From positions 620,001 to 684,000 of the forward strand of contig LVKA01000011.1 in NCBI GenBank assembly GCA_001709035.1: 64,000 bases of DNA. The letters are read 5' to 3'. The notes beneath the pieces are model-generated. The model had not been told where the DNA came from. It did no database searches and saw only the letters and a list, made by a program, of their open reading frames with translations. The position numbers were made by a program, and so were the translations under genes. The stretch is from Candidatus Thiodiazotropha endoloripes. Lineage in GTDB: Bacteria > Pseudomonadota > Gammaproteobacteria > Chromatiales > Chromatiaceae. This document shows, in pieces, positions 22,928 through 33,579 of the stretch; positions within the stretch are counted from its first letter, which is position 1; every line of letters begins with the position of its first letter.

Positions 22928-23380
22928 CTACAGTTCATCTGCCGGAATATTTACAATGTTCGGCCACTGTGTGTCGGCCTTACTCAGATTGCCAGGGATA
23001 TCCTTGCGCCAAATATCATAGACTTGTTGATTCTTGTTAACATAGAGTATTCCATCGACAACCTCAAACGCCTTACCATCTACCTGAAACTTTTTGCCTA
23101 AGGTGGCGCCGTAGGCACAAAAACCACCATAAGCGGGTGCGTATTTTTCAGGATTGCTGTGGAACAGGTCACGATTGTCTGAGCTGCTGAACTGGTAGAT
23201 CGCATCATTGTAAACAGCGGTATACTTGGAACTGCCTTCAACGGCCGTGCCTTGTGTATGATAAGCGACCACATCATGGCCATCCAGTATGACACCGTTG
23301 ATATCGGTGCCGGTATCAACGCCAGCCCATAATGATGTGGTTACAACGGTGAATAAAAAAGCGAATATGGTACGAATCAT
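22928..23380 (-). CDS. Exported YHS-domain protein
   Basis: The start at 23380 (MIRTIFAFLFTVVTTSLWAG) has TAGGAGA upstream and gives a signal peptide; 150 residues. The YHS domain reads ILDGHDVVAYHTQG then KYTAVYNDAIYQFSSSDNR, FHSNPEKYAPAYGGFCAYG and KAFEVVDGILYVNKN. YHS domains are small, possibly metal-binding modules found near copper and haem enzymes. Divergent from the AraC regulator, which may control it. Confidence 0.85.
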   Translation of the reverse strand: MIRTIFAFLFTVVTTSLWAGVDTGTDINGVILDGHDVVAYHTQGTAVEGSSKYTAVYNDAIYQFSSSDNRDLFHSNPEKYAPAYGGFCAYGATLGKKFQVDGKAFEVVDGILYVNKNQQVYDIWRKDIPGNLSKADTQWPNIVNIPADEL

Positions 23381-23580
23381 TGCATTTCTCCTATCGGGTG
23401 ATGATCTGTTTAAATGAATCCTCAGTTGCGAGACTGTGTCGCGGATGAGCATTGACATAGATCTTAGTGGGCCGATAATCTGATTGGCATGCGCAAAACG
23501 CCGAAGAGTATGTCCAATACTCTATAATCTCTTCGTCGAGACAGGCTGTCCTGGCTTTGAAATGATTCAGGTGATTGTTT

Positions 23581-24474
23581 ATGGACTCACTGTCCACAAT
23601 ATTCAGCACATTTCGTCTGCAGGTCGATATTATCCACAATGCACAGTATTGTGGAAATTGGGCGGTGGATACATCAGGGCCGGGGCATATCAGCTTCCAC
23701 CTTGTTACACATGGTCAATGCTATGCGGAGTCGTCACAGCTGAAATCGCCGGCAAGATTGGAGGCAGGTGATTTCATCATGTTTCCACAGCGTACCCGTC
23801 ATCGAATATCTTCCGAGAGGGATAGCGAGATAGAGCTCAACATAGCCCCTTCACTGCCCTATGCGGAAGGGCTGCAGTTAGATGGTGTTGGTCTACTTTG
23901 CGGTTATTTTCGTTTTACTCATGCGGCCAACAGTCCGCTCATCGATCTATTGCCACCGGTGAAAATTGTTCAGAGTGCTCTTGCCCAAGCGGATTCCATA
24001 CCTGTACAAATTCTTTCGATAATCAAACGGGAAGCGTTATCACAGGAATCGGGTAGCCAGGCCTTGATCAATCGTTTGGCTGAATCCCTATTTGTCGTAC
24101 TGGTTCGTGAACATCTGCTGGAGAACGAAGCATTATCCGGTCTGTCTGCCGCGCTGACAGATGGTCGTATAGCCAAAGCTCTGGATGCTATTCACGCAAA
24201 ACCGGAATATGGGTGGAGTGTCGATGAGCTGGCGGTGCTGGCGAATCTGTCACGCTCGGCCTTTGCCGATCGTTTCAAATCTCTGTTGGGTGAAACACCG
24301 ATCAACTACCTTGGACGCTGGCGTATGCAGAATGCCTGGTTATGGTTGAGTGAGGAGCACGCTACAATCTACGATGTTGCCAAACGCTGTGGGTATGAGA
24401 GTGAGGCCTCCTTTTCGAAGGCATTCAAAAAGTATACGGGTGAGTCACCTGGGAAGGTGAGGAAGAAGCTTTAA
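23581..24474 (+). CDS. AraC-family transcriptional regulator
   Basis: About 297 residues. An N-terminal cupin (AraC_binding/cupin_6-like) holds SFHLVTHGQCYAES and LEAGDFIMFPQRTRHRI. The C-terminal double HTH has SVDELAVLANLSRSAFADRF and the family closing motif YDVAKRCGYESEASFSKAFK then GESPGKVRKKL. ATGs at 23575 and 23581 are both possible. It sits divergent to the YHS gene across ~200 bp and probably controls it; the effector is unknown. Confidence 0.88.
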   Translation: MDSLSTIFSTFRLQVDIIHNAQYCGNWAVDTSGPGHISFHLVTHGQCYAESSQLKSPARLEAGDFIMFPQRTRHRISSERDSEIELNIAPSLPYAEGLQLDGVGLLCGYFRFTHAANSPLIDLLPPVKIVQSALAQADSIPVQILSIIKREALSQESGSQALINRLAESLFVVLVREHLLENEALSGLSAALTDGRIAKALDAIHAKPEYGWSVDELAVLANLSRSAFADRFKSLLGETPINYLGRWRMQNAWLWLSEEHATIYDVAKRCGYESEASFSKAFKKYTGESPGKVRKKL

Positions 24475-25648: not shown

Positions 25649-25980
25649 GATGACTCTCCAGAGTGATACAAACGCAGGTTAATTCCGTGTAGCCAGAAAT
25701 GTGATCCTGCAATTTCAAAATAGTATCAAATCAATAAGATAGTTTCAGTTAATTGTAACCGGGCAATGATGTAGCGAAATATTTACATTGTTCAGTTAGG
25801 GTGAATGACAGGCTTAAGCCTATTCCGGGGAAGAACAAACTAAACGCCGAATCATTGTTCTGGTTGCCGTTGCCGCTATTCGGCATTAGTCTGGCCTGGC
25901 TTTTAGCTGTAATAACAATCCTATAAATCGATTACCGGGCAGCTATATGCAGCCTGTGTGTTCACAAGAGGGAGAAAACC
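25649..25980. other. Intergenic region
   Basis: Divergent promoter region for the small exported protein and the CxxCH/DUF692 pair. No clear operator; a GAGGGAGAA ribosome-binding site precedes 25981. Confidence 0.5.
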
Positions 25981-26226
25981 ATGGAGTATCCAACCGCCAT
26001 CGCACTCGACAAAGATGCCCTGCGGAGTAATGTAGTACGCGTTACGATTCCCGCCAAAGCCATGTTCGATCTTAAAAAAATGCAAAAAATCACCGAATCG
26101 GTGCTTGATCAGCTTGGCTGCGGCAATTGTCACTCGGGACACGATATCCGTTTCGATATCGAGAAGCAGTTTATTGTTGATGAGAAGCTGAAAGTCCACA
26201 GCCAGATGGAATTGATGCGGCGTTGA
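25981..26226 (+). CDS. Small CGNCHSGHD protein coupled to DUF692 enzyme (candidate substrate/precursor)
   Basis: 81 residues, strong ribosome-binding site (GAGGGAGAA). No signal peptide. A charged N-terminal half (PTAIALDKDALRSNVVRVTI) leads into a compact Cys/His motif CGNCHSGHDIRF at 47-58, then a polar tail. The CxxCH could be mistaken for a haem site, but the protein is not exported, so haem c attachment is unlikely. Its stop overlaps the TTG start of the DUF692 gene (TTGA at 26223-26226). DUF692 enzymes oxidatively modify Cys or Asn in peptides, so this protein is a candidate substrate; it could equally be a partner subunit. Confidence 0.75.
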   Translation: MEYPTAIALDKDALRSNVVRVTIPAKAMFDLKKMQKITESVLDQLGCGNCHSGHDIRFDIEKQFIVDEKLKVHSQMELMRR

Positions 26227-27683
26227 AAACAGAACCACTGGGCGTAGGCCTGGTCTACATTCCGGGGCTCGAACCTCTGTTCGAGTCACCGGATGTTGCG
26301 GTTCAGGTATTGGAGCTTGAACCACAGGTATTGTGGCGTTACTTCCCCAATAGGGATCAGCCCTACGAAAATCAACTTGAATTTCTCAAACGGTTACAAG
26401 CCCTGCCACAGGCCAAGACCGTCCATGGGGTCGGCTTTCCGGTAGGTGGTTCGCGGATACCGGATCCCAGGCATATCCCCCCTTTACGCGAAGCGATTCA
26501 AACCCTGAATGCGGCCTGGGCCAGCGAACATCTGGTGTTCAATGAATCGGTCGATGCACAGGGCAACCCGGTTCAAACCGGTTTTTTCCTGCCACCGCTG
26601 GCTATGCCATCCGGTGTCGATGCGGCCTGTCGAACCATTCAGGCGGTCTCCGCTAAGATTCCTGTACCCTTTGCTGTAGAGACGCCAACCAACTATCTGA
26701 AACCCATACCGGGTGAAATGAGTGATGGAGCGTTCACGGCTGCTGTGGTCGAGACGGCCGATTGTGGCATTCTCCTCGATCTACACAATATCTGGTCGAA
26801 TGAGCGCAATGGCCGACAATCCGTGGAGGCTTTTCTCAGTGAGATACCGCTCGACCGGGTGTGGGAGATTCATCTTGCCGGAGGCTTGAAATATGGGGAC
26901 TACTGGCTCGACGCCCACTCGGGGGATATCCCGCGTCCTGTTATCGAATGGGCGCAAAGGTTGATTCCCTATCTACCCAATCTTGGCGCAGTGATCTACG
27001 AGATTCTTCCAGCCTATCTTCCCCGGTTCGGATTGGACGGTGTGCGACGGGCTGTAGATGAGATGCATGACCTTTGGAGTTGCCGTTGCTCTGCTCAGGA
27101 GAGTGACAACCCATTTAAAAACACGGAACCTAAGACGGTATCCGGAGATAATCGCTTAACCCCGGAGGTCTGGGAGAGGAAGCTCTCCGCGCAGATACTC
27201 TTCCCGAGTGACTATGAGGATGAGTTGAGCAGGCAACTTGCCAATGATCCGGCAGTTGCCCTGATTCGGGAACTGAATAGAAAATTCCGTTTGAGTGCCA
27301 TCATTTCAAATCTCAGGATGAGTATCAGATTGCTGATGCTCAGTCTGGATGAGGCCTCGTTTGATCGGCTTGTGGCAGATTACTGTGTCAGTCAGACACC
27401 GGATCGATTCGCGGTTAATGAGTCACACCGTTTCGCCGAATACATTAGAAAACTTGATCTGGAAATTCCCTATCTGTACGAAGTCCTGAATTACGAAATT
27501 ACCGCCATGGATGTCATAGCCGACGGACAGGCTCGTACTGTACCTTTCACCACAGATCCTCAAACACTGCTTGAGATCCTTGGCCGGGGGGAGTTGCCGA
27601 TCGAGCTGCCGACGGCTGACTATGAGGCAGAGATCACCCCGCCAGAAGAGCGGGCGTTTGAAACGCAAAGCCTGATCCATTAA
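26223..27683 (+). CDS. DUF692 multinuclear iron enzyme with DUF2063/BufC-like C-terminal extension
   Basis: 486 residues, starting at TTG in a 4-base overlap with the upstream gene. Residues ~8-290 are a DUF692 (MbnB/BufB/TglH) TIM-barrel: HGVGFPVGG (~69), SEHLVFNES (~102), ETPTNYL (~153), LLDLHNIW (~184), WEIHLAGG (~214), DAHSGDIP (~230) and VIYEILP (~258). These supply the His/Glu/Asp ligands of the iron cluster; DLHN replaces the more usual DVNN. Residues ~310-470 are helical (LSAQILFPSDYEDELSRQL, FDRLVADYCVSQTP, RFAEYIRKLDLEIPYLYEV) and resemble the HvfC/BufC/MbnC partner proteins that hold the precursor. Such partners are normally separate genes, so this looks like a B-C fusion. Confidence 0.85.
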   Translation: MKTEPLGVGLVYIPGLEPLFESPDVAVQVLELEPQVLWRYFPNRDQPYENQLEFLKRLQALPQAKTVHGVGFPVGGSRIPDPRHIPPLREAIQTLNAAWASEHLVFNESVDAQGNPVQTGFFLPPLAMPSGVDAACRTIQAVSAKIPVPFAVETPTNYLKPIPGEMSDGAFTAAVVETADCGILLDLHNIWSNERNGRQSVEAFLSEIPLDRVWEIHLAGGLKYGDYWLDAHSGDIPRPVIEWAQRLIPYLPNLGAVIYEILPAYLPRFGLDGVRRAVDEMHDLWSCRCSAQESDNPFKNTEPKTVSGDNRLTPEVWERKLSAQILFPSDYEDELSRQLANDPAVALIRELNRKFRLSAIISNLRMSIRLLMLSLDEASFDRLVADYCVSQTPDRFAVNESHRFAEYIRKLDLEIPYLYEVLNYEITAMDVIADGQARTVPFTTDPQTLLEILGRGELPIELPTADYEAEITPPEERAFETQSLIH

Positions 27684-28271
27684 CTATCTGTGGTAGGTTC
27701 TCACGACGCCTAATAGTATCCCCTGAACTTGCAGCCTGTCCGCAGCATAGATTTGGGCTTTCATCTCATCATTGTGTGGAATGAGTTTAATGCTTTTTCC
27801 GCCCTCTATTTTTTGGAATTCCTTCAAGGATGCCTCTTGGTTATCGACCAAGGCCACAACAATTTGTCCATTACTCGCGGTATTCGATGGTTTTATGACA
27901 ACCAGATCGCCATCCAGAATGCCGCTGTTGATCATCGAGTCGCCTTTTATTTTGAGCAGAAAACAGTCCGGTTGTATCAATAACGTTGTGAGATCGATCG
28001 TCTCATCCTGCTCCACTGCCTCAATCGGCATCCCGGCCGCGATCACACCTTTGTAGGGCAGTTCATTGGGTGAACGTAGCGTGCGCCAGCCTGAACGGGC
28101 CTTTTCGAGAAATCCCTTTTCTTTGATGGAAGTGACATAACGGTGCACCGTGCCCACCGATTTGATACCGCAGCCATCACCGATCTCAGACAGCTTGGGG
28201 GATTGACCATTGTGGCGCCTGAGGTAGTCCCCGATGAAGAGCAGGATCTTTTTTTCCAGTTCCGTCAGCAC
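27684..28271 (-). CDS. lexA: LexA-like SOS repressor linked to the imuAB-dnaE2 operon
   Basis: 195 residues: N-terminal winged helix (LTELEKKILLFIGDYL, KSVGTVHRYVTSIKEKGFL) and a C-terminal S24 peptidase domain with the Ala-Gly cleavage site in VIAAGMPIEA, the catalytic Ser in GDSMINSGILDGD and the Lys in EASLKEFQ. It is divergent to imuA across a 77-bp region holding a strong inverted repeat, so it most likely controls itself and the mutasome on DNA damage. The recognition site here is not the enterobacterial CTGT-N8-ACAG, so this may be a second, operon-dedicated LexA. Confidence 0.92.
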   Translation of the reverse strand: MLTELEKKILLFIGDYLRRHNGQSPKLSEIGDGCGIKSVGTVHRYVTSIKEKGFLEKARSGWRTLRSPNELPYKGVIAAGMPIEAVEQDETIDLTTLLIQPDCFLLKIKGDSMINSGILDGDLVVIKPSNTASNGQIVVALVDNQEASLKEFQKIEGGKSIKLIPHNDEMKAQIYAADRLQVQGILLGVVRTYHR

Positions 28272-28286
28272 TTGACTTTCTCCGAA

Positions 28287-28322
28287 TTTTCTCTAACCTA
28301 GAATAGAGAAAATTTAGAGAAA
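28287..28322. promoter_or_regulatory. Operator of the LexA-like repressor between lexA and imuA
   Basis: TTTTCTCTA (28287-28295) and TAGAGAAAA (28304-28312) form a perfect 9-bp inverted repeat with an 8-bp spacer. An additional TAGAGAAA half-site follows at 28315-28322. It sits 27 bp upstream of the imuA start and 15 bp from lexA. Confidence 0.8.
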
Positions 28323-28348
28323 CATCAACTCCTTTTTGGGATTGTTTT

Positions 28349-28960
28349 GTGAAAGAATCCTTAAAAAAACTTTTAAATAACAATCAGTTGATATGGTGTG
28401 GAGAAAGATGCGCTCCCCCTGGGCAGGGTGTGTCTACCGGCCATGCCGCATTGGACGCCATTCTGCCTGAAGCCGGATGGCTGCGAGGCGCGTTGATCGA
28501 GGTGATCTCGCCTCAATGGGGTATCGGTGAAATAGAGCTCTTTCTGCCGGCCATGGCCGCTGCCACGCAGGCGAACAAGCAGTTGGCATGGATCGCTCCA
28601 CCCTATATCCCTTACCCACCCGCCCTGGTAAGCGGCGGTATTTCATTACGCCATCTGCTGCTGCTGCGTCCACCTCAGCATCAGGAGATCCCCTGGGCGA
28701 TGGAGACGGTGCTGCGCCAGCGTCGTTGTGCCATGGTGTTGGCCTGGCCTGGCCGATTGCTAGCGAAAACAGTGCGGCGCCTACAATTAGCCGCCGAGGC
28801 AGGGGGTGGGGTGGGCGTGCTGTTTCGGTCGGAACATCAGGATAGCTCTTTTGCAGCAACACGTCTGCTGCTCACACCAGGAACGTCTGTCTTGCAGGTC
28901 ACCATTCTGAAAAGCCGCGCTAGTCGTGGCCGCCAGACGGTAGATCTTGCACTTAACTGA
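28349..28960 (+). CDS. imuA: ImuA, RecA-like mutasome accessory protein
   Basis: 203 residues from a GTG start. RecA/SulA-like core: STGHAALDAILPEAGWLRGALIEV near 30, IAPPYIPYPPALVSGGI, then AMVLAWPGR and a C-terminal RGRQTVDL. It lacks a true Walker A and, in known systems, supports ImuB and DnaE2 in translesion synthesis. First gene of imuA-imuB-dnaE2 with 12 bp to imuB; likely SOS-induced through the adjacent operator. Confidence 0.88.
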   Translation: MKESLKKLLNNNQLIWCGERCAPPGQGVSTGHAALDAILPEAGWLRGALIEVISPQWGIGEIELFLPAMAAATQANKQLAWIAPPYIPYPPALVSGGISLRHLLLLRPPQHQEIPWAMETVLRQRRCAMVLAWPGRLLAKTVRRLQLAAEAGGGVGVLFRSEHQDSSFAATRLLLTPGTSVLQVTILKSRASRGRQTVDLALN

Positions 28961-28972
28961 TGCTTCGCTGTC

Positions 28973-30481
28973 ATGTCCGAATCCGCCGCTGCCGCCCCCC
29001 TTCAGCATACCCTGTTTCCGTCCCAGTCACCGCAGGCTCCCAAGCCGTCTGCGACGGGGCGCTCTTCACTGTGGATGAGTCTCTTTTTCCCCCGTTTGTC
29101 CCTGGAAGTACTGGATGCTGATGTGGATGCCAGGCCATGGGCGGTCATCGATGAAGCGCATGGGAAACAGATTATCCACGCTGCGTCGCAACCGGCTCGA
29201 AAGAAGGGCGTGGAGACCGGCATGGCGCTTACGGCAGCTTATGCCCTGTGTCCCGAGTTGGCGACCGAGCAGCGCGATCTCCCGGCTGAACAGGCCCGCT
29301 TAACCGATCTGGCCGACGAGGCTATGCAGTACAGCTCCATGGTCAGCCTGGAACCGCAGGCGTTACTGCTGGAGGTGGGCGCCAGCTTGAAGTTGTTTGG
29401 CGGCCTGCAGGCATTGCACGCGCGTGTGGCAGGGGATCTGCGACAGCAACCCTATCGGGTGGAGATTGCTGTTGCTCCTTCCCCACAGGCGGCCTTGCTG
29501 CTGGCGCGTTGTGGTATGCAGGCCTGCATCACCGAAAGCGCTGCCCTGCGTGCAGAGCTGGGTAAACTGCCACTTGCCGTACTGCCTGTTTCTGAGAAAC
29601 AGGCAAGCCTGCTAGTCAGAATGGGTTTGCGCGAACTGCGCGATCTTTGGCGTCTTCCCAGAGCGGGATTGATAAAGCGTTTAGGGCTGGAGTTTATCGA
29701 TTATCTTGATCGGTTGTTGTGCGATAAACCCGAACTTCGCTTATCCCATAAGAGCGCACCGATTTTTTCCGCCTCCTGGCACTTCCCTCAAGAGACAGAA
29801 AACTTGACCTTCATTCTCTACGGCATTGAACAGCTCCTGCCGCGTTTGGTGCACTTCATGCGATTGCGGGAATTGGCGCTGAACCGCCTACAGGTGATCT
29901 TTTATCATGCGGACAAAGAGACGTCGTGTCTGCATCTGGGCACACGGCAGCTATGCCGTGACGAAACGCACCTATCGACACTGATACGAGAACGGTTTAA
30001 TCAGGAAAAACTGTCGGCACCTGTATTGGAGTTGGTGCTGCTCGCAGCTGAATTTCATCCCGCCGCTATCGGCAATCAAGCGCTGTTTGCGCCGGGTGAG
30101 GAACAGGACACCGATTGGCAGCAGGTGTTGGATCAGCTACAGACCCGCTTGGGAGAAGAGGCGGTGTGCCATCTGCAACTGCGGGACGAACACCGACCCG
30201 AATACGCCTGGGCCTATACCCTGACCGATCATGCAGAGCCACAGACTCACGGGTTATTGAAGAGGCGCCCACTTTGGCTGTTGTCACAGCCACAACGATT
30301 AGGCAGTAGATTGAAAGAGATTCAATTGACATCCGAATCGGAACGTATCGAGGGTGGCTGGTGGGATGGTTTTGATATCCGGCGCGATTATTATCAGGCA
30401 CGCGATCGTCATGGCCGGCGATTGTGGCTGTTTCGTAATCTACAGGATGGAGCGTGGTATCTGCAGGGTTTATTCGGGTAA
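28973..30481 (+). CDS. imuB: ImuB, catalytically dead Y-family polymerase homologue
   Basis: 502 residues. Y-family (DinP/UmuC) palm and fingers at the N-terminus (SLFFPRLSLEVL, WAVIDEAHGKQIIHAAS, ARKKGVETGMALTAAYAL) followed by little-finger and C-terminal regions. The catalytic acidic residues of real Y-polymerases are absent: the DxDxF motif reads FPRLSLE and the SIDE motif reads SLEPQALLLEV. ImuB acts as a scaffold that binds the sliding clamp and recruits DnaE2. It ends 11 bp before dnaE2. Confidence 0.93.
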   Translation: MSESAAAAPLQHTLFPSQSPQAPKPSATGRSSLWMSLFFPRLSLEVLDADVDARPWAVIDEAHGKQIIHAASQPARKKGVETGMALTAAYALCPELATEQRDLPAEQARLTDLADEAMQYSSMVSLEPQALLLEVGASLKLFGGLQALHARVAGDLRQQPYRVEIAVAPSPQAALLLARCGMQACITESAALRAELGKLPLAVLPVSEKQASLLVRMGLRELRDLWRLPRAGLIKRLGLEFIDYLDRLLCDKPELRLSHKSAPIFSASWHFPQETENLTFILYGIEQLLPRLVHFMRLRELALNRLQVIFYHADKETSCLHLGTRQLCRDETHLSTLIRERFNQEKLSAPVLELVLLAAEFHPAAIGNQALFAPGEEQDTDWQQVLDQLQTRLGEEAVCHLQLRDEHRPEYAWAYTLTDHAEPQTHGLLKRRPLWLLSQPQRLGSRLKEIQLTSESERIEGGWWDGFDIRRDYYQARDRHGRRLWLFRNLQDGAWYLQGLFG

Positions 30482-30492
30482 GGGGTGTGGAC

Positions 30493-33400
30493 ATGTCCTA
30501 TGCCGAACTCCACTGCATCAGCAACTTCACCTTTTTACAGGGTGCCTCACACCCGGAGGAACTCGTCGCACGCGCGGCGGTGCTCAACTACCGTGCCCTG
30601 GCCATCACCGACGAATGCTCCCTGGCCGGTGTTGTGCGCGCCCATGTCGAGGCCAAGCGTCAGCAACTCCACCTCATCATCGGCAGCCGGTTCAGGCTGG
30701 AGGACGGTCTGTCGTTTGTACTGTTGGCGACAAACCGCAAGGGATATGGTCAGCTATCCACATTGATCTCAAAGGCACGCCGTAATGCCGATAAAGGCGA
30801 CTACCATATGACCCGAGTCGATCTAACCCGGCATTGCCTGAGTGACTGCCTTGCTTTGTGGCTACCGGGAGAAGCGCAGGAGGTGGTCTTTCTCAATGAG
30901 CTTTTCCCCAAGCGGTTATGGATCGCTGCAGAGCTGTCGCTGACAGGCAAGGATGGGGCGCACCTGGAACATCTGCGGTGTCTGTCTCAGCGCCACGATA
31001 TCCCCCTAACGGCTAGCGGTAATGTTCAGATGCACCAGCGCAATCGTCGCATCCTGCACGATACCCTCACTGCGATTCGTTTGAACATACCCCTGGCACA
31101 ACTGGGTAATCGATTGGCCGCTAATGGAGAAGGTCACCTGCGCTCTTACCAGCGCCTGACACAAATCTATCCTCAGGCCCTGTTGCATGAAACCCTGGCC
31201 ATTGCCGATCGTTGCACCTTCTCGCTGGATGAGTTGCAATACGAATACCCCAGTGAACTGGTACCCGAAGGTTACAACGCCACTGATTGGTTGCGCATCC
31301 AGGTTGAAGCCGGAGCCAAAGAGCGCTGGCCGCAAGGGGTACCGGATAAAGTCAGAAAAGCGATCGAACATGAGCTGGCATTGATCGCCGAACTGAAATA
31401 CGAACCCTATTTCCTCACCATTTACGACATCGTCTGTTTTGCGCGCAGCCAGAAGATTCTTTGCCAGGGCCGTGGCTCAGCGGCCAATTCCACGGTTTGT
31501 TATTGTCTCGGCATTACCGCTGTCGACCCGGCCCGCATGGCGCTGTTGTTCGAAAGGTTCATCTCCAAGGAGCGCAACGAACCGCCGGATATCGATGTGG
31601 ATTTTGAGAATGCCCGGCGTGAAGAGGTGATTCAATACATCTATCGAAAATATGGACGTGACCGAGCTGCCCTGGTTGCCACCGTGATTACCTACCAGCC
31701 ACGTAGCGCCATACGCGACGTAGGCAAAGCGTTGGGATTTAGCCGGGTGCAGGTAGAGCGTCTGGCCAGATCCACCCGCTGGTGGGACAGTCAGGTCTTG
31801 ATCCCCGGCCACCTGGCTGAAATGGGCTTTTCTGCGGAGAGCCCTTTGATCAAACGACTGATCACCCTGGTGGAGATGCTGCTCGGGTTTCCTCGCCATC
31901 TCTCACAGCATGTCGGCGGTTTTATCATCTCGGCCGGACCGTTGACCCAACTTGTCCCCATTGAAAATGCGGCGATGCAGGAGAGAACCATAATCCAGTG
32001 GGAAAAAGACGATGTCGAAGCCCTTGGGCTACTGAAAATGGATGTATTGGCGCTTGGCATGCTGACCGCACTGCGCAAGGCATTGGGTTACATCGGCGCG
32101 CCGCAAAAATGCGAACTCTCTCTGGCTGATATTCCCGCTGAAGATCCCAAAGTCTACGAAATGATCAGTCGTGCCGATACCGTGGGCCTGTTTCAAATCG
32201 AATCACGGGCACAAATGTCGATGCTGCCCCGGTTGCGACCCCGGAATTACTATGACCTGGTGATTCAAATCGCCATTGTTCGTCCAGGCCCCATACAGGG
32301 TGATATGGTGCATCCCTATCTCTTGCGTCGCAGCGGTAAGGCACCTGTCACCTATCCCAGCGAGGCCATTCGTTCGGTATTAGAACGCACCCTGGGAGTG
32401 CCGATTTTTCAAGAGCAAGTGATGCAGATCGCCATGGTAGCCGCCGGTTTCAGTGCCGGTGAAGCAGACCAGTTACGTCGCGCTATGGCGGCCTGGAAAC
32501 GCAAAGGGGGGCTGGAGCCCTTCGAGGAAAAACTGCACAGCGGCATGCGTAAACGAGGTTATAGCGATGAATTCGCGCGGCAGATCTTTCGCCAAATTCG
32601 CGGTTTCAGCGATTACGGTTTTCCCGAGTCCCACTCAGCCAGCTTTGCGTTGCTGGCCTATGCCTCGGCTTGGATGAAACTCTATCACCCGGCTGTATTC
32701 GTTTGCGCACTCTTAAATAGTCAACCGATGGGATTCTATGCCCCGGCGCAACTGATACAGGATGCCAAACGGCATGGCGTGGAAGTGCGGCCTATCGATG
32801 TGCGATTTAGTGAAGCGGACTCTACCCTTGAATACGATACCCCCAGGGAGCAGAGCGAAGAACCCAGCCCCCAGCCTGCTTTGCGGCTGGGTTTGAATAT
32901 GGTCAAAGGCCTCTCAGAGGAGGGTATACAAAACCTGATCGATGCGCGTAAGCGGAAAGCTTTTGTCGATGTGGGTGAACTCGCCAATCGTGCCAAACTC
33001 CATCGCACCGACCTGCAAGCCTTGGCCAGTGCCGATGCGCTGCAGGGTTTTTCAGGGGATCGTTATCGTGCCCAGTGGCAGGTCAGTGGTGTGGAAGAAC
33101 CCTTGCCCCTGTTCCAGGAGTACAACGCCGAAAGTGCCGAAGTCATGCTGCCCAAACCCGACGAACAGGAGGAGATCATTGCCGATTATGCCAGTAGCGG
33201 TGTGAGCCTTCGGCGCCATCCTGTTGCTTTGCTGAGGCCCCGCCTGAATAAAAGGCGCGTGCATACGGCACAGGCACTCTGGTCGGTGCGCAACGGCGCC
33301 GTCGCCCGTACCGCCGGACTGGTCATCGGTCGTCAACGCCCCGGCACGGCCTCCGGTGTCATCTTTGTCACCTTGGAAGACGAAACCGGTCAAGCCAATG

Positions 33401-33579
33401 TCATCGTCTGGCCGAAGATCGCCGAAGCGCAACGTAAACCGTTATTGCAGTCACAATTATTGATCGTCAGCGGTATCGTGCAACAGCAAGATGGGGTGTT
33501 GCATTTAGTCGCCGGGCGGTTGGAGGATCGTACTGACTGGCTGGGAGATCTGCAGACAAAATCGAGAGATTTTCATTGA
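30493..33579 (+). CDS. dnaE2: Error-prone DNA polymerase DnaE2 (ImuC)
   Basis: About 1028 residues from ATG 30493 (MSYAELHCISNFTFLQGASH), with GGGG before it; an earlier ATG at 30454 lies inside imuB. PHP domain at the N-terminus, then the DnaE polymerase core with GRGSAANSTVCYCLGIT, the catalytic PPDIDVDFENARREEV motif, the QHVGGFII segment, FQEQVMQIAMVAAGFS and SDYGFPESHSASFALLAYASAW, and a C-terminal OB domain (FVTLEDETGQANVIVW). It performs mutagenic lesion bypass after DNA damage. Length matches DnaE2, shorter than DnaE1. Confidence 0.95.
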   Translation: MSYAELHCISNFTFLQGASHPEELVARAAVLNYRALAITDECSLAGVVRAHVEAKRQQLHLIIGSRFRLEDGLSFVLLATNRKGYGQLSTLISKARRNADKGDYHMTRVDLTRHCLSDCLALWLPGEAQEVVFLNELFPKRLWIAAELSLTGKDGAHLEHLRCLSQRHDIPLTASGNVQMHQRNRRILHDTLTAIRLNIPLAQLGNRLAANGEGHLRSYQRLTQIYPQALLHETLAIADRCTFSLDELQYEYPSELVPEGYNATDWLRIQVEAGAKERWPQGVPDKVRKAIEHELALIAELKYEPYFLTIYDIVCFARSQKILCQGRGSAANSTVCYCLGITAVDPARMALLFERFISKERNEPPDIDVDFENARREEVIQYIYRKYGRDRAALVATVITYQPRSAIRDVGKALGFSRVQVERLARSTRWWDSQVLIPGHLAEMGFSAESPLIKRLITLVEMLLGFPRHLSQHVGGFIISAGPLTQLVPIENAAMQERTIIQWEKDDVEALGLLKMDVLALGMLTALRKALGYIGAPQKCELSLADIPAEDPKVYEMISRADTVGLFQIESRAQMSMLPRLRPRNYYDLVIQIAIVRPGPIQGDMVHPYLLRRSGKAPVTYPSEAIRSVLERTLGVPIFQEQVMQIAMVAAGFSAGEADQLRRAMAAWKRKGGLEPFEEKLHSGMRKRGYSDEFARQIFRQIRGFSDYGFPESHSASFALLAYASAWMKLYHPAVFVCALLNSQPMGFYAPAQLIQDAKRHGVEVRPIDVRFSEADSTLEYDTPREQSEEPSPQPALRLGLNMVKGLSEEGIQNLIDARKRKAFVDVGELANRAKLHRTDLQALASADALQGFSGDRYRAQWQVSGVEEPLPLFQEYNAESAEVMLPKPDEQEEIIADYASSGVSLRRHPVALLRPRLNKRRVHTAQALWSVRNGAVARTAGLVIGRQRPGTASGVIFVTLEDETGQANVIVWPKIAEAQRKPLLQSQLLIVSGIVQQQDGVLHLVAGRLEDRTDWLGDLQTKSRDFH

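Follow-up and report, generated by a model that had tools for sequence, protein, structure and literature searches.

The HvfBC and BufBC systems (oxazolin, bufferin) combine a barrel of the multinuclear non-heme iron-dependent oxidative enzymes (MNIOs; DUF692, PF05114), a DUF2063-type partner, and a Cys substrate. In these systems, the partner is a separate PME-type 1 protein, mostly 250–260 amino acids (aa) long with a full recognition element (RRE) for ribosomally synthesized and post-translationally modified peptides (RiPPs), and the precursor carries a Sec signal (PMC12452194). Here, we analyzed a two-gene locus in a 64,000-nucleotide stretch of Candidatus Thiodiazotropha endoloripes (contig LVKA01000011.1, positions 620,001 to 684,000; hereafter, the window). 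It shares the barrel, a DUF2063-type partner domain, and a Cys substrate candidate with HvfBC and BufBC, but the barrel and the putative partner are joined in one 486-aa chain, and the 81-aa substrate candidate encoded directly upstream lacks a signal peptide. We consider it likely that the pair as a whole is a self-contained modification module, in which a single-chain MNIO holoenzyme would act on the small protein as its substrate.

The other described systems differ from this locus in further respects. Bufferins are set apart from the small protein, which has no hydrophobic N-terminus and no Pfam domain over the cut-off, and no free DUF2063 was found in the flanks of 29 related loci. TglHI (3-thiaglutamate, pearlins) uses a separate TglI, and its target Cys, which comes from cysteinyl-tRNA, is located at the extreme C-terminus (PMC9016710), whereas the small protein has its motif at residues 45–55 of 81, and the enzyme carries its partner domain in cis. 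MbnBC oxidizes Cys with a barrel that carries the same ligands as here (PMC8888699), but it has a separate MbnC and a DISN motif, and its product is a copper-uptake peptide. MovX is likewise a single-chain MNIO without a separate partner, bearing an extra C-terminal RRE/winged-helix domain (PMC12452194; PMC13419390). However, it acts on a C-terminal Asn, and it is set apart here by the description of its extra domain as a winged helix, not DUF2063-like (PMC12452194).

The nearest match on the precursor side is adjamnio-7, named in 2025 as a signal-peptide-less CxxC putative precursor family of MNIO sequence cluster 7, with Novilysobacter spongiicola as the example (PMC12452194). The small protein agrees with it in the missing signal peptide, the CxxC, the MNIO neighbor, and the species, Novilysobacter (= Lysobacter) spongiicola. 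Two MNIOs were found in the genome of L. spongiicola DSM 21749, one of which is the fusion. The second, read by eye, has DVNN, a separate partner-like frame, and a Sec-signal-like EGKCG precursor with an EF-hand-like stretch. Because this other MNIO has a Sec-signal precursor, the small protein should, by elimination, be adjamnio-7. The precursor family is thus almost certainly not new, and the proposal of an earlier sequence-only reading, made by a model from the letters of the window, that the locus is a new system has to be withdrawn to that extent. The main-text passages of PMC12452194 on adjamnio-7 do not include the enzyme-partner fusion, the two-domain substrates, the LGCxxCxSGxD motif, or the constraint described below. 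None of the main-text mentions of "fusion", "fused", or "chimaera" in that paper concerns an MNIO-partner fusion, although an MNIO-nitroreductase fusion is reported. Similarly, a literature search, in which subscription journals were thinly covered, found no natural MNIO-DUF2063 fusion in titles or abstract openings. Some MNIO enzyme-partner pairs form the heterodimer only partly or are insoluble apart (PMC13419390; PMC9016710), and one laboratory bypassed the heterodimer problem with an artificial HvfB-HvfC fusion, which has the same domain order as the natural one and is functional (PMC13419390).

The small gene occupies positions 25981..26226 on the plus strand, including its stop, and is preceded by a Shine-Dalgarno-like GAGGGAG, read from the sequence, at 25968..25974 (plus strand), 6 bases ahead of the first ATG. 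The fusion gene follows at 26223..27683 (plus strand), beginning with TTG within a four-base overlap (TTGA). Frames, overlap, and the CxxCHSGHD motif, which is found at C47-D55, agree with the sequence-only reading. The small-protein alignment was used to scan one genome per species (84,980 species), giving 137 pattern matches and 29 confirmed relatives; because the scan demanded one of two short peptide patterns, distant relatives are expected to have been missed and fusions without the small protein were undetectable. In line with the coupling described in the sequence-only reading, the fusion was next downstream of the small protein in all 30 loci (the 29 relatives plus genome G189, locus L044). 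The enzyme was a single frame over the whole profile in 28 of these; L062 has a 386-aa frame without the first part, and L072 has two frames. In the latter, from Paracoccus amoyensis (L072:8410-9863), the frames are of 192 and 284 aa and the small gene is intact, perhaps reflecting a frameshift or an assembly error. Measured in 24 pairs, the stop-to-start gap ranged between −26 and +32 bases. Both flanking long frames (the longest open reading frames, ORFs, rather than annotated genes) are on the opposite strand in the window and in L052, L054, L060, L064, L071, L075, L077, and L078. With opposed neighbors on both sides, the transcription unit in those nine loci seems to consist of the two genes alone. 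No neighbor of the pair recurred beyond near relatives and one broad mixed cluster (various positions, nine loci), and 20 neighbors scanned with Pfam belonged to varied unrelated families or gave nothing. Among the 30-locus neighborhoods, with these 20 neighbors Pfam-scanned, no exporter, protease, or other tailoring gene recurred beside the pair. The small protein and the fusion are a real unit.

Four of the 29 relatives (L052–L055) are same-genus genomes already found, and the remainder come from Gamma-, Beta-, and Alphaproteobacteria (Pseudomonadota), Actinomycetota, and Bacteroidota. In a sample of the genus, the fusion was present in 7 of 22 genomes and the small protein in 6; in the seventh fusion genome (G009), the contig stops inside the enzyme gene. 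The small protein occurred in 2 of 369 genomes of the class, the same two that carry the fusion, and in 1 of 299 of the phylum, the source genome itself. A tblastn search (E 0.01) of 72,556 plasmid records and 50,697 phage records returned no match. We also observed a stray partial copy at G013:C255:31449-31526 (L043), which matches small-protein residues 7–32 only and has an internal stop. G189 (L044:4983-10411) has two MNIO systems adjacent to each other: a TauE gene, an 88-aa frame, and a separate MNIO with its own DUF2063 partner come first, and two tandem small proteins and the fusion follow.

The MNIO TIM barrel spans residues 1–290 (26223..27092, plus strand). The window barrel scored 125 bits against PF05114 (cut-off, 25), confirming the DUF692 assignment of the sequence-only reading, and PF05114 was matched by all 29 family members. 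A VIA-align structure search (rows spanning residues 4–291) showed that the fold agrees with solved MNIO members. The ligand positions read from the sequence are H68, H103, E153, D186, N189, H217, D230, H232, and E260. H68 is kept in 29 of 30 fusions, the exception being L062, which lacks the N-terminus, and the other eight are kept in all 30. Eight of the nine positions align onto TglH ligands; E260 lies beyond the TglH alignment and was assigned from the family alignment only. The source genome (4.87 Mb, 25 contigs) has four MNIOs and three DUF2063 genes, one beside each of the three other MNIOs.

The active-site signature further distinguishes the fusions. In 35 fusion frames, we read D[LIMV]HN, and the fifth position of HxxxG is Gly; in 29 separate MNIOs, the corresponding signature is D[VIL]NN, and that position is taken by His, Phe, Tyr, or Pro (AG[HFYP]). 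This tally counts distinct frames with a readable pattern, some of the fusion frames being the same G189 gene cut differently; L025, L002, L088, L062, and the two L072 pieces have none. The sequence-only reading took DLHN as a sign of a new product. DLHN does separate the fusions from the separate MNIOs, but the further step is not secure because TglH also carries DLHN (with HLAGG). In addition, the residue changed in DLHN is not among the listed iron ligands of TglH (PMC10880893) or VcMbnB (PMC8888699). TglH was considered as a special relative and rejected, as the TglH stretch scores fusion and separate MNIOs alike; its position in the tree is unsure (end branch, 4.77), and the apparent nearness comes down to two short signatures and the barrel Z. 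By analogy, since TglH shares the D-x-H-N plus Gly signature, Cys50 might undergo carbon excision or a different rearrangement of the backbone as readily as thiooxazole formation.

Next, we analyzed the C-terminal half. A helical DUF2063/PME-type partner domain is placed by sequence profiles at residues about 314–470 (27162..27632, plus strand), with a short strand-helix-strand tail. In the window protein, this half showed no Pfam match over the cut-off, no NCBIfam match, and no DUF2063 in Pfam at E up to 10. Across the family, Pfam DUF2063 matched 4 of 29 fusion members (best E, 2.2e-4). A first hidden Markov model (HMM) of free DUF2063 partners, built from 32 rows with repeats included and no fusion, reached members at residues 332–442 (best E, 3.7e-7). 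A second profile (A8; 22 free partners), run without filters and with E-values computed for 29 sequences, matched 15 of the 29 fusions at E ≤ 0.001 (best E, 1.4e-9), in every case within the C-terminal half, and the window protein at residues 375–440 (E, 4.2e-5). Comparison of the fusion C-terminal profile with the free-partner profile by hhalign gave 95.6% and E 1.3e-8 over 118 columns. The enzyme-partner fusion proposed by the sequence-only reading is thus supported; together with the pairing in 30 of 30 loci, this means that the reading has come through two of the three tests set for it. In the 369 genomes of the class, the C-terminal profile gave five matches, two being the fusions of the source genome and G189, and three being free proteins (longest frames, 245, 256, and 372 aa), each of which adjoins or overlaps an MNIO frame. 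One such pair, at L088:606-2172, consists of an MNIO and a 245-aa free partner that scores E 7.7e-11 with the fusion C-terminal profile and 1.6e-7 with the DUF2063 profile; this pair is possibly the nearest unfused relative. No free DUF2063 frame was found in the examined flanks of the 29 relative loci, whereas G189 does carry one, beside its other MNIO. Because free partners adjoin MNIOs and the fusion flanks show no free DUF2063, we count the domain as a partner in cis, and the profiles are consistent, for the family, with a diverged DUF2063-type MNIO partner. After the helices, there is only a strand-helix-strand (residues 438–471), which, compared by description, resembles the shortened PME-type 2 (PMC12452194).

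The small ORF differs from four same-genus orthologues by 23–32 nucleotide changes and 0–3 amino-acid changes (dN/dS 0, 0.009, 0.012, and 0.025). Because the nucleotide changes leave the amino acids nearly untouched, it is a genuine gene. Within the genus, near-zero change extends along nearly the entire protein, not the core alone, and the dN/dS of the enzyme against three orthologues is 0.088–0.091. No signal-peptide-like hydrophobic stretch was seen by hydropathy, used without a dedicated predictor (best 19-residue mean, 0.62), in agreement with the sequence-only reading. The protein had no match above the cut-off in Pfam or NCBIfam, and PHROGs, which has no cut-off, returned a single weak family listed as unknown (E, 0.028). 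A profile search against PDB by sequence found no convincing relative. A cytochrome c3 match (14 bits; cut-off, 25), probably arising from the heme-like CxxCH string, was rejected because Cys replaces that His in 29 of 43 motif copies and because a signal peptide is absent.

The core, LGCGNCHSGHD, spans residues 45–55, with the codons of L45-D55, including Cys47 and Cys50, at 26113..26145 (plus strand); its motif residues are C47-G-N-C50-H51-S-G-H54-D55. We tallied the motif in 31 small proteins of the relatives, leaving out the window protein and demanding Cys at position 50. The 43 domain copies recovered equal those expected from 19 single and 12 double proteins, so that every expected copy has Cys50. 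Position 47 is Cys in 38 copies and His in 5, and position 51 is Cys in 29, Phe in 6, His in 4, and Ala in 4; His51 is confined to the genus of the window, with mostly Cys outside. The family motif, LGCxxCxSGxD, is the best-kept part of the small protein. Among the two-domain small proteins of Rhodobacterales (L064, L070–L074), Cys47 is lost in five of six second motifs, and those of Flavobacteriaceae type (L075–L080) carry Phe51 in the first motif, where the Asp is also followed by an additional Cys. Because Cys50 is the sole cysteine present in every domain copy, including second domains without Cys47, it is the best candidate for the reacting cysteine.

All 36 fusion rows of a 67-row barrel tree, including five that represent a single G189 gene, fell to one side of a branch supported at 99/96. 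Rows from Rhodobacterales and Flavobacteriaceae-type genomes clustered together contrary to taxonomy (11 rows, 99/96). A two-domain small protein is present in 12 loci, namely those 11 rows plus L072, which was left out of the tree. L062 (Cyclobacteriaceae) and L067 (an alphaproteobacterium) fall outside this group, each with one domain and a long branch. Distances between small proteins correlated with those between enzymes over 28 loci (r 0.85; 0 of 2000 permutations).

These results suggest the following mechanism. The iron-loaded barrel (1–290) would be tied by a poorly ordered linker to its own partner domain (about 314–470). This domain would bind the first half of the small protein (VVRVTIPAK..FDL..MQK...VL) and place the LGCxxCxSGxD stretch at the iron cluster. 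There, the thiolate of the substrate would sit on one, ferric iron and O2 on the other, ferrous iron, as in MbnB and in the model for HvfB (PMC13419390), and a cysteine, preferably Cys50, would be oxidized. The small protein is very probably the target of the fusion enzyme, so that the substrate proposal of the sequence-only reading is supported. The sequences themselves show the domains, the ligand positions, the pairing, and the constraint; that modification occurs, at which residue, with which product, and with what function toward metals, we infer. Because no exporter or protease recurs and the sequence hardly changes, we favor a cytosolic role of the intact protein over a secreted product; the modified protein probably functions uncut in the cytoplasm, where it would most likely bind a soft metal (copper), a guess by analogy with bufferins.

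Several observations weigh against this interpretation. The partner assignment comes from sequence profiles alone: the window protein was not among the matches of the first partner HMM, the A8 profile left 14 of 29 fusions short of E 0.001, and no partner protein in PDB was retrieved by sequence with the C-terminal profile. The VIA-align list for the fusion structure contains barrels only, so that the absence of partner chains from it is uninformative. The predicted model of the small protein is poor (predicted local distance difference test score, 68.8), its division into leader and core is not clear, and it is more conserved than the enzyme. Furthermore, the correlation of distances is partly inflated by shared host ancestry, the distribution is patchy and points to no phenotype, and the small protein could be a binding partner of the enzyme but not a substrate.

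On this last point, the small protein may instead be a third subunit, an activator, or an iron/redox partner, with the true substrate encoded elsewhere. Dedicated pairing and extreme conservation are equally expected of a subunit, the CxxC could hold iron or a disulfide, and no leader/core split is visible. We nevertheless regard this as unlikely, since the tabulated clusters run precursor, MNIO, partner (PMC12452194), an order repeated here except that the partner is fused, and the Cys motif is the best-kept part. The tandem copies in G189 and the 12 of 30 two-domain loci with diverged motifs are likewise usual for substrates but odd for a fixed subunit. Slightly less probable still is that the small protein is an ordinary RiPP precursor from which unlinked proteases and transporters cut out and export the modified part. 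The pearlin pathway does free its modified residue by proteolysis from a signal-peptide-less scaffold (PMC9016710), but no protease or transporter recurred beside the pair among the 20 neighbors scanned, and the near-zero change along the protein does not single out the core. A reading in which the small protein stays unmodified and binds metal through Cys/His, with the barrel acting not as an oxidase but as a chaperone for iron or another metal, is very improbable; CxxC(H/C)xxH resembles a metal site and the scanned neighbors show no biosynthetic theme, but the catalytic ligand positions, needless for a plain chaperone, are all kept, and the MNIO products tabulated in PMC12452194 are all peptide modifications.

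Around the pair, five same-genus loci share a conserved block upstream of the small gene, at about 25843-25925 in the window, with arms GCCGAAT and ATTCGGC in the window copy. A hydrophobic mini-ORF was rejected for this block, as changes are spread about evenly over the three codon positions; because of this lack of codon-position bias, it is probably a promoter or regulator site. Directly downstream (27684-33579), LexA (TIGR00498; minus strand, convergent) is followed by ImuA (NF033429), by a 502-aa frame that occupies the ImuB position but has no NCBIfam match at 1e-10, and by the error-prone DNA polymerase DnaE2 (NF004225), forming an SOS mutasome-like cassette. L052 and L054 have this order next to the pair as well, whereas L053 does not, so the link looks positional. 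At 22928-24474, we found a match to a YHS-domain (seleno)protein family and an AraC-type regulator distantly like RclR, far below the RclR cut-off.

MNIOs perform some of the least expected peptide chemistry. With the natural fusion, one gene would provide the enzyme and one the substrate, in named cultured strains such as Nitrosospira briensis (L061) as well, so that the reaction is testable with two genes. The substrate would be unusual for the class in being small, nearly unchanging, and free of a signal peptide and of recurring export or cleavage genes, which points to an intracellular function. It is possible, if doubtful, that the outcome is not a secreted peptide but an oxidized cysteine rebuilt into a permanent cytosolic cofactor or metal site, through mid-protein MNIO chemistry performed by a natural one-chain holoenzyme.
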